NCBI GenBank assembly: GCA_903852815.1
Contig: CAINRW010000106.1
Span: 1-35,307, forward strand
Reading direction: 5' to 3'
Length of the DNA stretch: 35,307 bases
Source: an uncultured Actinomycetes bacterium
GTDB taxonomy: Bacteria > Actinomycetota > Actinomycetes > Nanopelagicales > Nanopelagicaceae
Each line of letters begins with the position of its first letter. Within the stretch, counting starts at the first letter, position 1. Shown here in pieces: positions 3,137 to 35,307 of this stretch. Under the pieces are notes generated by a model. It did not search any database. It was not told the origin of the DNA and was given only the letters and a program-made list of their open reading frames with translations. The position numbers were made by a program, and so were the translations under genes.

Positions 3137-4357
3137 ATGCCTTCCCTGACTCCAGTAACAACTACGCGACTTGGCAGTCATCTGCCGTTGCTTGATTTAC
3201 TTCCCGATGCGCAACCTTTTGCTTGGGTTCGAATGGGAGATGGAATTGTTGGCTGGGGTGTTCATGCGACAACTACCGTTAGTGGCCCTCATAGATTTTC
3301 TGATGCACGACACTGGTGGCAAAAGCAGTTAGAAAGTTTTGCTGTGACTAACACCGTGCATGGAAATGGGACTGGCCCTGTTCTCTTCACTTCATTTTCA
3401 TTTTCACCTGAAGATGTATCGGTTCTTGTCATTCCAAAAGTAATTGTTGGAAAAAAGGGCGATAAGTCTTGGATTACGTGGATTGGTTCAGATCCACAAC
3501 CAATACTCAATGCGGAAGTTCAAGAATTAAAAAATGTTTCCGTAACTTGGGAAGTTGATGGAGAAGCTGATGCTGCTTGGAAAACGCGAGTGCAAACCGC
3601 AGTCGATCGTATTCAATCAGATGTTCTCGATAAAGTAGTTCTGGCACGAGATGCAATTGGAACTGCTAAAACTTCTATCGATGCTCGCTCAGTTTTACGT
3701 ACATTATCAACTGAGTATCCATCAACGTGGAACTTTTCAATCTCAGGATTAGTTGGTGCGACCCCTGAACTGCTGCTCCGTTTGACTCGAGGAATGATTA
3801 CTTCGCGAGTGCTGGCGGGAACGATTAGTAAAACGGGAAATGACGAACGCGATTTAGCTTTAGCTGGTTCACTTGCTCGCTCTTCAAAAGATTTAGAAGA
3901 GCATGAGTATGCAGTTCGCTCGGTGGCCGATGCAATTGAACCATTTTGCACTTCAATAAATGTTCCTGAATCACCGTTTGTATTACACCTTGCAAATGTT
4001 ATGCATCTTGCAACTGATGTAACGGGTGCACTTGCTGAAACTCTGGCTCACGTAGATGCATTCACAATTTTGGAACAACTGCATCCATCTGCGGCAGTTT
4101 GTGGAACTCCTAGACCCAAAGCTGCGCAACTAATTAGTGAAATTGAAGGAATGTCACGTGGTCGTTATGCAGGGCCTGTCGGTTGGATAGATGCTGCAGG
4201 TGATGGTGAATTAGGAATCGCACTTCGATGTGGTCAAATCAATGGTGACTCAATTCGAATTTTTGCAGGTTGTGGGATTGTGGCTGGTTCTGACCCAGTG
4301 AAAGAACTTGCAGAAAGTGAAGCTAAGTTCGTTCCAATGCGAAGTGCACTGCGTTAA
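3137..4357 (+). CDS. menF: Isochorismate synthase
   Basis: Converts chorismate to isochorismate, the first committed step toward menaquinone. From the ATG at 3137 it has 406 residues. The chorismate-binding C-terminal half shows DKVVLARD with the catalytic lysine at about residue 166, the conserved acidic segment SSKDLEEHEYAVRSV, LHPSAAVCGTPRP, and RGRYAGPVGWIDAAGDGE, the signature separating isochorismate synthases from anthranilate synthase. A longer frame starting inside bioY is rejected because it has no ribosome site and the extra 15 residues are bioY sequence in another frame. GATATT ends seven bases before the ATG, a weak leaderless promoter candidate. Its stop overlaps the convergent menD by four bases. 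An isochorismate synthase for siderophores is unlikely here given the neighbours. Confidence 0.93.
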   Translation: MPSLTPVTTTRLGSHLPLLDLLPDAQPFAWVRMGDGIVGWGVHATTTVSGPHRFSDARHWWQKQLESFAVTNTVHGNGTGPVLFTSFSFSPEDVSVLVIPKVIVGKKGDKSWITWIGSDPQPILNAEVQELKNVSVTWEVDGEADAAWKTRVQTAVDRIQSDVLDKVVLARDAIGTAKTSIDARSVLRTLSTEYPSTWNFSISGLVGATPELLLRLTRGMITSRVLAGTISKTGNDERDLALAGSLARSSKDLEEHEYAVRSVADAIEPFCTSINVPESPFVLHLANVMHLATDVTGALAETLAHVDAFTILEQLHPSAAVCGTPRPKAAQLISEIEGMSRGRYAGPVGWIDAAGDGELGIALRCGQINGDSIRIFAGCGIVAGSDPVKELAESEAKFVPMRSALR

Positions 4358-6875: not shown

Positions 6876-7754
6876 TTAGGGACGCTTAGGAAATTTTCCG
6901 AAATCAGGATTTCGTTTTTCTTTATATGCATCGCGGCCTTCTTGACCTTCTTCAGTCATATAGAAAAGCAAGGTTGCATCTCCAGCTAACTGTTGCACGC
7001 CAGCCAATCCATCATCGGCAGCATTCAAGCTGGCTTTAAGCAAGCGAAGTGCAAGCGGTGAGTTACGAAGCATCTCACGACACCATGAAACAGTTTCGGC
7101 TTCTAACTCTGCAACTGGAACTACCGTATTTACTAATCCCATATCCAAAGCTTCTTGCGCATCATATTGTCTGGTTAGAAACCAAATTTCACGGGCTTTC
7201 TTCTGACCAACATGAGCAGCTAATAAGCCTGCGCCATAACCACCATCAAATGAACCGACCATTGGTCCGGTCTGTCCAAATTTTGCATTGTCAGCGGCGA
7301 TCGTTAAATCGCAAACAACATGAAGAACATGTCCACCGCCAACCGCCCAACCTGCAACCATTGCAACAACTGGTTTTGGGGTGCGGCGAATTTGTACTTG
7401 TAAATCTAAAACATTTAAGCGACCTATACCTTTTTTCGCTAACTTGTCATCGCCAAGATAACCATCATCACCGCGAACACTGATATCTCCGCCAGAACAG
7501 AAAGCTTCGCTACCTTCGCCCGTAAAAATTATTACGCCGACTTCTTCATTGTCGCGCGCTAAATGAAAAGCCTCAATTAATTCAATAATGGTTTGTGGTC
7601 GGAATGCATTACGCACTTGTGGGCGATTGATCGTGATCTTGGCCATGCCTTCAGCCATCTGATATTTAATATCGGTGAATTCTTCGCCACCTGGTGCATT
7701 TACCCATGCTGGGATTTCTCGACTGCCACTTTCGCGCTTAAACGGCTTGCTCAC
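6876..7754 (-). CDS. menB: 1,4-Dihydroxy-2-naphthoyl-CoA synthase
   Basis: A crotonase-family enzyme that closes the second ring of the naphthoquinone from o-succinylbenzoyl-CoA. It has 292 residues, with the longer N-terminus typical of actinobacterial MenB. Visible are the CoA/oxyanion-hole segments [11 protein letters not shown] (about 86-95) and [11 protein letters not shown] (135-145), the motif [10 protein letters not shown] (167-176) with its conserved Asp170, and the C-terminal [16 protein letters not shown]. The start is GTG at 7752-7754, preceded by GGAGG four bases upstream; an ATG two bases further up runs straight into a stop. It heads the menB-menC-menD operon and is divergent from menE. 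Confidence 0.96.
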
Positions 7755-15109: not shown

Positions 15110-17305
15110 ATGGAAATGCGCTCCTTCTCCGACTACCTACGTAGTATCGATGATGCTGCTTTCCTAAAACTTTTTGCATCACGTCCTGATCTTGTTATTC
15201 CAGTACCACCTGATATTGCTTCACTCGCTGTACGCGCTTGTTCGGCACCAAGTTTGGCGCGCGCGATTGATTCGCTCAATCATTGGCAATTTCAAGTTCT
15301 TGAAGCGTGTGTGTCATTGAGTGAACCGTTTTTATTAAAAAATCTCACCGCAATAACAGATAGGGCAGCAGCGAAAGCTTTAGATCATTTAATTTCTATC
15401 GGTCTGGTTTATCCATCTGATGATGGAATGCGGTTACCCTCACAATTGCGTGATGTGATTGGTAATGAACCTGCCGGTCTTGGCCCAGCTTCAATGGTTA
15501 AGTTGAAGTTGTCAGAAATTGACGATGCTCCGCAAGATGCTAAGAAAGTTTTAGAGAGATTGGTTTGGGGACCACCTCGTGGAAGTGTTGGTGACATTAA
15601 GAATCCTGGTCCTGGTGTTGCTTGGCTGCTTGAAAAGAAATTTCTTGTTCCCCTCGATCAGCGCACGGTAATTTTGCCGCGAGAAGTTGGTATCTATTTA
15701 CGTGGTGGAAAGATTCACAAACAAAGTTTTGTTGAACCGCCCACTCTGACTGGAAATAAACGCGACGAACGACAAGTAAACCTTGCAGCAATCGCAAATA
15801 TTTCAACCGTACTTCGTTGGGTTGAAGAATTACTTAATTTCTGGGCTGATGAACCCGCAGATGCTTTACGCGCCGGCGGGCTGGGTGTTCGAGATTTAAA
15901 AATAATCTCAACGCATTTAGGTGTAGATGAATCGTGCACGGCCTTTATTGCAGAGCTTGCTTATCTTTCATCATTGATAAGCATTGATGCTGATGATCGC
16001 ATAATGCCAAGCAACAAATTTGATATTTGGTTGCTGCAATCTCCTGCCCAACGTTGGCAAACACTTGCTTCACAGTGGCTGATTACTTCGCGCGTAAGTG
16101 GGTTAGTCGGAAGATTAGAATCAAAAAATGTTGCAGCACTCGGTCCTGAACTAGATCGGGTAAATGCCGCAAAAGTCCGAGCGATGACCCTTTCGATTCT
16201 CAATGACAATGTGGGAATTGCGCCTGATTTAACTTCTTTCAATGCACTTTTAGCGTGGCGTACTCCAGTTCGTCGAAACTCATCACTTCAAGAAGAGTTG
16301 GCTGCCTGGACTCTGCGAGAGGCTGAATGGTTAGGAATTACTGGGCAAGGGGCGATTTCTTCATACGGAATTGAATTTTTGTCAGGAAATGATCTCAATG
16401 TAATTAATGATGATTTACCTAAAACAGTTGATCATATTTTGATTCAAAGTGACAACACTGCAATTGCTCCAGGTCCACTCGAGCATGAAATTTCGCAGCA
16501 GCTTGCCATGATGGCCGAAATTGAAAGTCGTGGTGGTGCAACGGTTTATCGATTCAGTGAATCCACGATTCGTCGAGCTTTGGACCATGGAAAAACAGGC
16601 GAAGAGATAAAAAACTTCCTTGCAAAGACTTCAAAAACACCCATGCCGCAACCACTTGAATACTTAATTTCAGATGTTTCAAAAAAGCATGGAAAATTGA
16701 GAGTTGGAAACACTTCCGCTTTTATTCGTTGTGAAGATACTTCGTTAATCGCACAGATTATGAACGATAAGCGATTAGACGGCCTTGCACTGCGCCGTAT
16801 TGCTCCTGAAGTTGTTATCTGTGATCTTGATGCAAGTGACACCATGCGAATTTTGCGTGAGGCTGGATACCTTCCTGCAGGAGAGTCAGCGACAGGAATA
16901 ATGCTGATGGGTCCGCGCGCAAACAGAGCGCAATCAAAACCGCGTCCGCCACGGGTGATTGGTGAAGTTGAAATTCCTAGCGAAGATAATTTGAATGCAG
17001 CTATTCGTGCTTTGCGAACAGGTGAAAAATCTACGCACAAACAGACGCATCTGCGCCAAATTGCAAACGAAGCTCTTGGTGCGCTTCCCAGAACAACTGC
17101 CAATGAAACTATGGATTTAATTAATAGATTTATTGTGCAAGAGAAATCACTTTCCATTGGCTATGCCGATAACAATGGATCAGTGACTCATAGAATCATT
17201 GATCCCATTCGAGTAAGCGCTGGTGCGTTAATTGCCCGCGACCATGCAACGGGAGAGGTCCAATCCTTTCGGATTCCCCGTATCACTGGCGTTGCACCGC
17301 TATAG
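15110..17305 (+). CDS. Helicase-associated (Helicase_C_3/WYL-like) protein, partner of XPB
   Basis: A 731-residue protein resembling the actinobacterial family of mycobacterial Rv0862c, which is adjacent to the XPB helicase gene. It has no Walker motifs and is not itself a helicase. The N-terminal half is helical, with winged-helix-like segments around 50-125. From about residue 438 to 540 is the Helicase_C_3 (XPB/Ssl2-type) region beginning VDHILIQSDNTAIAPGPL. The last 65 residues, from LINRFIVQEKSLSIGYADN to SFRIPRITGVAPL, look like the beta-barrel half of a WYL domain. A role in DNA repair with XPB is inferred from family and neighbourhood. Two ATGs (15110, 15116) are equally possible starts. 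Confidence 0.85.
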   Translation: MEMRSFSDYLRSIDDAAFLKLFASRPDLVIPVPPDIASLAVRACSAPSLARAIDSLNHWQFQVLEACVSLSEPFLLKNLTAITDRAAAKALDHLISIGLVYPSDDGMRLPSQLRDVIGNEPAGLGPASMVKLKLSEIDDAPQDAKKVLERLVWGPPRGSVGDIKNPGPGVAWLLEKKFLVPLDQRTVILPREVGIYLRGGKIHKQSFVEPPTLTGNKRDERQVNLAAIANISTVLRWVEELLNFWADEPADALRAGGLGVRDLKIISTHLGVDESCTAFIAELAYLSSLISIDADDRIMPSNKFDIWLLQSPAQRWQTLASQWLITSRVSGLVGRLESKNVAALGPELDRVNAAKVRAMTLSILNDNVGIAPDLTSFNALLAWRTPVRRNSSLQEELAAWTLREAEWLGITGQGAISSYGIEFLSGNDLNVINDDLPKTVDHILIQSDNTAIAPGPLEHEISQQLAMMAEIESRGGATVYRFSESTIRRALDHGKTGEEIKNFLAKTSKTPMPQPLEYLISDVSKKHGKLRVGNTSAFIRCEDTSLIAQIMNDKRLDGLALRRIAPEVVICDLDASDTMRILREAGYLPAGESATGIMLMGPRANRAQSKPRPPRVIGEVEIPSEDNLNAAIRALRTGEKSTHKQTHLRQIANEALGALPRTTANETMDLINRFIVQEKSLSIGYADNNGSVTHRIIDPIRVSAGALIARDHATGEVQSFRIPRITGVAPL

Positions 17306-33807: not shown

Positions 33808-34563
33808 TTAACGCCCCTGTCCCATTTTCATATTGTCTATTAATCGAACACCTTCGATCCAACCTGCAATGATCGCTCGCCGATTTGGAGTCTCATTGTT
33901 TGCAATTTCAAAGTTTTCTTCATTAATAATTGCCGCATAATCCAAAGTAAAACTGCTCTCGCTCGCTAAAGTTGAACTAATAACTTCCTGCGCAACTTCT
34001 ACGCTTGGTGCTAAATGTGCCGCTACCAAAGCGCGATGAATAATATTTGCACTTATTCGTCCCTTGGCCGATAGACGTACATTTCGTGAAGAGAGTGCAA
34101 GGCCATCGAATTCACGAACCGTTGGTGAGGAAACTATCTCAACCTGACTTTTCATTGATTTAATAATCGTCAATTGCTGAAAATCTTTTTCCCCAAAAAC
34201 TGCAGCTTTGGGTTTAACGATTTCAAATAGCCGATTTACAACCGTAACTACTCCATCGAAATGATCAGGACGCGAGTGACCTTCGAAAACGAGGCCGAGT
34301 GGGCCGGCAGAGATTTTCTTGATTTCATCGGGGAAAATCTCTTCATAATCCGGCAACCAAACTTCGGTAGCCCCTGCAAGTGTTGCTAACTCAATATCTC
34401 TTTGTGCATTTCTCGGATATTTTTCAAGATCAACTTTATTTTCAAATTGGAGTGGATTCACAAAAATACTTACGACAACGTTTTTATCCAATGTGCGCGC
34501 ACGTCTGATCAAGGCCTGGTGGCCTTTATGTAAGGCACCCATAGTTGGCACTAATACAGTCAT
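33808..34563 (-). CDS. panC: Pantothenate synthetase (N-terminally short)
   Basis: Joins pantoate and beta-alanine using ATP. The catalytic blocks are intact: the HIGH-type VPTMGALHKGHQALIRRA (5-22), SIFVNPLQFE, GVVTVVNRLFEIVKPKAAVFG, GEKDFQQL and LALSSRNVRLS. It has 251 residues against the usual 275-290, and lacks the N-terminal strand and helix that normally precede VPTMGALHxGH. The start is firm: GGAG lies seven bases before the ATG at 34563, and an in-frame TGA occurs six codons upstream. The C-terminal half looks normal. Likely functional, but the shortened N-terminus is unusual. Confidence 0.93.
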   Translation of the reverse strand: MTVLVPTMGALHKGHQALIRRARTLDKNVVVSIFVNPLQFENKVDLEKYPRNAQRDIELATLAGATEVWLPDYEEIFPDEIKKISAGPLGLVFEGHSRPDHFDGVVTVVNRLFEIVKPKAAVFGEKDFQQLTIIKSMKSQVEIVSSPTVREFDGLALSSRNVRLSAKGRISANIIHRALVAAHLAPSVEVAQEVISSTLASESSFTLDYAAIINEENFEIANNETPNRRAIIAGWIEGVRLIDNMKMGQGR

Positions 34564-34618: not shown

Positions 34619-35065
34619 CTAAGGCAATTGCTCCAAAATCTGACTGACGCGACCATGTGTAATTAAAACGGCGTCAGGCTCTATCTCTAACCAGGGCGCA
34701 AGAACGAAACGCCGCTCGTGTGCACGCGGGTGAGGCAGAAATAGTTCTTCGCTTTTGCTCAATATAGAACCGTATTGAATTAAATCTAAATCGATAGTGC
34801 GTGGACCCCAATGCTCAAGGCGTTCACGGCCCAAGGTTTTTTCTATGCCATGCAATAAAGACAACAGGGCTGCTGCCGATAGATCACTTTCAATAATGCA
34901 GACAGCATTCAGATAATCCGGTTGCTCTGGCCCACCAACCGGTGCAGTTGAGTGATAACTCGAAACTGCAATCAACTCTGTTGCTTCTTTCAGCAGCGCA
35001 ACAGCAATATCTAGATTTTCTTTTGGATTTCCAATATTGGCACCAAGAGCAATAACGGCTTTCAT
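34619..35065 (-). CDS. folK: 2-Amino-4-hydroxy-6-hydroxymethyldihydropteridine pyrophosphokinase
   Basis: Transfers pyrophosphate to hydroxymethyldihydropterin in folate synthesis. It has 148 residues. The N-terminal ALGANIGNPKENL, APVGGPEQPDYLNAV, RTIDLDLIQYG (metal-binding Asp pair) and LPHPRAHERRFVLAPW are the family blocks in order. The ATG overlaps the upstream folB stop by four bases (ATGA), the usual folB-folK arrangement. The product then passes to dihydropteroate synthase, not in this window. Confidence 0.96.
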   Translation of the reverse strand: MKAVIALGANIGNPKENLDIAVALLKEATELIAVSSYHSTAPVGGPEQPDYLNAVCIIESDLSAAALLSLLHGIEKTLGRERLEHWGPRTIDLDLIQYGSILSKSEELFLPHPRAHERRFVLAPWLEIEPDAVLITHGRVSQILEQLP

Positions 35066-35253
35066 CGCACCATCGAGATTTGTACTGCAAGATCTTTGAG
35101 TGTGGCTTCTACTGGAGCTTGTGGTTTATGCACTGTGACGGTGACTGAGTCAATTCTTATGTGTTCTTTCAAAATTCTTGCTGCAATTCTTCCTGCAAGT
35201 TTCTCGATTAAATTAACTGGGTTGTTTTTAAAATTGATACTATTCTTTTTTCC
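35062..35253 (-). pseudogene. folB: Dihydroneopterin aldolase, C-terminal fragment with a broken 5' part
   Basis: The last 52 codons are clearly FolB: PVNLIEKLAGRIAARILKE and then VTVTVHKPQAPVEATLKDL, including the conserved Lys in HKPQAP. Upstream of position 35220 the family similarity stops: the in-frame translation becomes Lys/Asn-rich and hits a TGA at 35254-35256. The expected sequence before PVNLIE (a VDY-type segment and the N-terminal half) is absent. The stop overlaps folK by four bases, so the 3' end is genuine. Either the gene is disrupted here or, more likely, the window ends in a sequence-assembly artefact. Confidence 0.75.
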
Positions 35254-35307
35254 TCAAAAGCAATTCGTCATTGAAATATTTATCCTTTTTATAGGTCTTA
35301 TATTTAC
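35221..35307. other. AT-rich tail unlike the rest of the window
   Basis: By hand count about 20 of 87 bases are G or C (roughly 23%), far below the flanking genes. On the minus strand it should hold the middle of folB but does not. Another frame on the minus strand is open for 21 codons from the window edge, Lys/Tyr/Asn-rich and ending in a TAG at 35240-35242. The composition suggests DNA from another source or a low-quality sequence end. Confidence 0.6.

Follow-up and report, generated by a model that had tools for sequence, protein, structure and literature searches.

The 35,307-base stretch of DNA analysed here (the window) breaks off within folB, the gene for dihydroneopterin aldolase, and closes with a short AT-rich tail, which raises the question of whether the truncated gene and its tail belong to the organism or to the assembly. 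The window spans all of contig C106, so that its end is a contig end, in a genome of 1,631,461 bases distributed over 149 contigs and 94.68% complete. To judge by its gene content, the organism resembles a freshwater actinobacterium. The first-pass annotation had reported folB similarity ending abruptly near this edge and an 87-base tail within 35218-35307, with a GC content of about 23%, a stop in the folB frame and a different, Lys/Tyr/Asn-rich frame open to the edge. It preferred a chimeric contig end to the border of inserted foreign DNA, and warned against inferring that FolB is absent. The composition of the tail was borne out. The terminal 87 bases have a GC content of 0.230, the lowest of the stretches tested, with none as low among the 35131 other 87-base stretches before 35218 (minimum 0.253, mean 0.446); over the 90 bases from 35218 to 35307 the value is 0.244, equalled in none of 35128 stretches. 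The folB frame does meet a stop codon when read across the tail, and the Lys/Tyr/Asn-rich frame, on the minus strand, is open to the edge as described but carries a TAG before the junction.

The remainder of folB is present in the same genome. The last 508 bases of the window match, apart from the window itself, the end of contig C111 (7294-7403) at 98%, in an overlap of 110 bases with two mismatches (35215 and 35180). Toward that edge C111 codes for TilS, a phosphoribosyltransferase, FtsH, FolE (PF01227), FolP (PF00809) and codons 1-103 of FolB (PF02152). Its folB portion scores 115.8 bits against PF02152 (E 1.9e-33), above the cut-off of 31.8, and the window ORF at 35062-35172 alone scores 23.1 bits, under that cut-off. 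The portion of folB in the window starts at NPVNLIEKL, includes 17 residues past the edge of C111 and is followed by folK and panC (Table 1); the two portions together count 120 residues, the same as FolB of the relative G011. The organism has folB, split between C111 and C106, and the caution against inferring its absence was right.

Table 1. Features at the folB end of the window, in window coordinates.
Feature	Position	Strand	Basis
panC (pantoate-beta-alanine ligase), neighbour	33808..34563	-	PF02569, E 3.6e-79
folK (HPPK), following gene in the folate cluster	34619..35065	-	PF01288, E 4.5e-39
folB 3' part (dihydroneopterin aldolase)	35062..35213	-	codons 1-103 on C111:7093-7401
8-base stretch common to folB and the Bacteroidetes gene	35216..35223	.	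comparison of window, C111 and L015
Foreign tail, within a Bacteroidetes beta-carotene 15,15'-dioxygenase-like (blh/BCD) ORF	35214..35307	+	94/94 identity

The tail has its counterpart in a different organism. When the genome collection was scanned with a degenerate pattern that represents one of the tail's readings, a single contig matched, CAIKZP010000209.1, from the metagenome-assembled genome (MAG) of an uncultured Bacteroidetes bacterium, isolate KT_bin-1943. The identity reaches past the pattern to every base of the tail, which corresponds to positions 7404-7497 of an 8000-base piece of that contig (L015). The whole contig is 57,019 bases long and its range places the match in the interior, at about 15404-15497. 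There the ORF is intact, with 293 amino acids, of which residues 40-288 match PF15461 (beta-carotene 15,15'-dioxygenase, E 2.9e-38), a Brp/Blh-type family for which we take blh to be the gene name. The tail encodes residues 14-43 of this protein, unchanged and rich in Phe, Leu and Ile, and thus lies mostly ahead of the Pfam match. Since the coding frame of the source runs on the plus strand of the window, the Lys/Tyr/Asn-rich frame, for all its openness, is not the coding one. The extent first given to the tail needs a similar correction: its low GC stands, yet the identity with the source covers 94 bases rather than 87, and the portion that is exclusively foreign amounts to 84 (35224-35307).

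Other sources for the tail were considered and rejected. A second copy in the window's own genome was represented by three weak matches of 14-21 bases, the best being located in C13 (21 bases, 95% identical, E 0.006), which were judged to be due to chance. A phage origin fared no better: in a blastn search against 50,697 phage records, 70 had matches, none of them covering 80% of the query, with E values of 3 to 10 among the matches listed (20 of the 70 records), and these too were attributed to chance. Two pattern scans of viral contigs for the tail returned no match.

At the junction itself the two origins meet in a short common sequence. The eight bases AACCCAGT at 35216-35223 are shared by C111, the window and the Bacteroidetes gene. 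At 35215 the window carries the Bacteroidetes base, differing from C111; 35214 is the same in all three (nine of ten bases in common), and farther from the tail the window agrees with the host, beginning at 35213. A single Bacteroidetes-type base therefore stands between the 8-base run and the first purely host base, and the crossover is not a perfect one. The Asn preceding the Pro of PVNLIE is likewise common to host and Bacteroidetes. When host and Bacteroidetes sequence were joined at random 1,000,000 times, a common run of at least 8 bases arose in only 182 cases; such runs being rare, the common stretch probably had a part in the formation of the chimera. Farther into folB, at 35180, the window has an Ala codon in place of the Glu codon of C111. 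The Bacteroidetes tail gives no explanation for this mismatch, which may represent strain variation or a read error.

Related genomes show the locus without interruption. A search of 12 congener genomes gave matches in 10, from which six loci were fetched (G001, G004, G007, G010, G011 and G012). In all six, folP, folB and folK are consecutive, folE of G012 being cut by a contig edge, and tblastn of the 293-residue blh-like protein against these loci yielded no match at E <= 0.001. The four alignments of the 12-congener search that reach the junction begin at bases 85, 88, 90 and 97 of the query, base 85 corresponding to window position 35223. A 194-base end query, in which bases 1-84 are the foreign-only part, was then compared with 60 other genomes of the same genus, drawn from a larger group. 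Matches were obtained in 15 of them, all starting at base 85 or later except for two, which start at bases 77 and 81 and so enter the foreign-only part by 8 and 4 bases. With these two exceptions, the abrupt end of folB similarity was confirmed. The remaining 45 genomes, having no match at all, are uninformative with respect to folB and indicate only the absence of a close copy of the tail; none of the 60 yielded such a copy.

These results also bear on the direction of the contamination. MAG contamination can run either way, and the tail might accordingly be native to the window's organism, with the Bacteroidetes MAG as the contaminated one. Such a reversal is exceedingly improbable: the stretch in question is internal to a 57-kb contig, where GC is 33% over 8 kb, and its intact ORF adjoins a lycopene cyclase ORF (PF05834, E 9.5e-8) with a photolyase ORF near by in the Bacteroidetes record, while the foreign-only part went unmatched in the 60 congeners, save for the two short run-ins of the folB alignments.

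The other contig ends of the assembly provide a measure of how exceptional this one is. The sample consisted of 83 ends: two of 500 bases from each of 40 other contigs, the two of C111, and the start of C106. Masked bases led to the removal of 26. Among the 57 that were left, the lowest GC over the terminal 87 bases was 0.264, so that an AT-rich tail is not a common property of contig ends here. The AT-rich start of C104 (1-87), a candidate for a third chimera, has 26.4% GC, compared with 53.5% in the following 413 bases; it matched no other location in the genome and nothing in Rfam. The C7 end (1-500) and the C110 end (3147-3646) share 95.8% of their sequence over 472 bases, and the bin may have retained both of two strain versions of one locus.

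In one of the sampled ends, that of C18 (2970-3085), 111-116 bases of rpoA appear to be joined, at the common stretch GCGCA, to a nitronate monooxygenase-like gene overlapping the end of C8. The terminal 116 bases find matches within the rpoA gene of relatives in six of 12 other genomes (five of eight of the same genus and one of four of the same class), and all six matches stop at base 116; the rpoA label derives from the complete ORF of G004 (PF01000, PF03118, PF01193), and the 37-residue peptide from the C18 end has no Pfam match alone. Bases 112-159 match the C8 end at 94%, within the nitronate monooxygenase-like gene (PF03060, E 2.7e-9), and the terminal 111 bases were not located elsewhere in their own genome. 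Here the assembly probably has a second chimera at a contig end.

The end of the window is almost certainly an assembly chimera, an artefact and not biology, because its tail is identical over 94 of 94 bases to the interior of a Bacteroidetes contig and the rest of folB lies on C111. The first-pass preference for a chimeric end is supported, unlike its second choice, in which inserted foreign DNA would have its border here. The unrelated tail has an identifiable source, the host locus continues elsewhere in the assembly (C111:7093-7403), and the arrangement is missing from related genomes, both in the six unbroken loci and in the 60-congener search. Neither two borders nor foreign DNA continuing with genes of its own, as an insertion would present, is seen, since the 94 bases reach the contig edge. 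The folE-folP-folB-folK-panC cluster would have been broken within folB into two contigs, C111 and C106, and the C106 side would then have been wrongly lengthened by 94 bases from the blh-like gene of a Bacteroidetes population. The most likely cause is a chimeric read or library molecule, produced by template switching at the short common sequence; we infer the switch, the one responsible read and the presence of the Bacteroidetes population in the same sample.

The assembler could also have created the join by itself: if it connected two paths that overlap briefly, no chimeric molecule would be needed. The overlaps between contig ends vary in length (40, 51 and 93 bases exact, and the 110 bases with two mismatches between C106 and C111), so that overlap-based joining may have been used, and a fixed k-mer overlap, as from a de Bruijn assembler, is unsupported. 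Assembler word and overlap lengths, however, are generally far above 8 to 10 bases, the length of the common stretch here, and the assembler acting alone is rather unlikely. A literature search on chimeras of this tail and junction type gave nothing usable. One article (PMC8121793) describes a MAG set from stratified lakes, for which reads of 2 x 150 bases were assembled with Megahit, and to which KT_bin-1943 might belong.

A biological alternative to the chimera would be that, in part of the population, Bacteroidetes DNA had truly entered folB by a very recent transfer and had thereby caused the contig to break. The occurrence of intact and joined versions of the folB region in one bin is what such a transfer could produce; yet the foreign part comprises just 94 bases that end with the contig, nothing in the window's genome matches the remainder of the 8000-base source piece at E <= 0.001, identity over the tail is 100%, an uninterrupted continuation of folB is found in the same bin, and another contig end of the assembly also looks chimeric. 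A transfer is, on these grounds, very improbable. Correspondingly, there is only a slim chance that a few cells carry a folB truly interrupted by newly acquired Bacteroidetes DNA for retinal synthesis (blh), a transfer between distantly related bacteria observed as it happens. The AT-rich tail and the truncation of folB are not real features of the genome. The matter is of consequence for curation only: the annotation should show folB divided between C111 and C106, with the final 94 bases trimmed or flagged; neither a loss of FolB nor a transfer from Bacteroidetes is to be inferred, and at least one other contig end, that of C18, calls for equal caution.

In comparison with known systems, the end of the window resembles other chimeric contig ends of MAGs in its short unrelated tail, sharp junction, short common sequence and true continuation on another contig; nothing distinguishes it from them, except that its tail can be traced to an exact source. 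What the tail encodes, residues 14-43 of a member of the Brp/Blh type of beta-carotene 15,15'-dioxygenases (PF15461), is only a fragment, the complete gene being located in a contig of another organism. FolB (PF02152) is the host gene at the break, and the order folE-folP-folB-folK is that of the congeners; the gene differs from theirs only in its division across two contigs.
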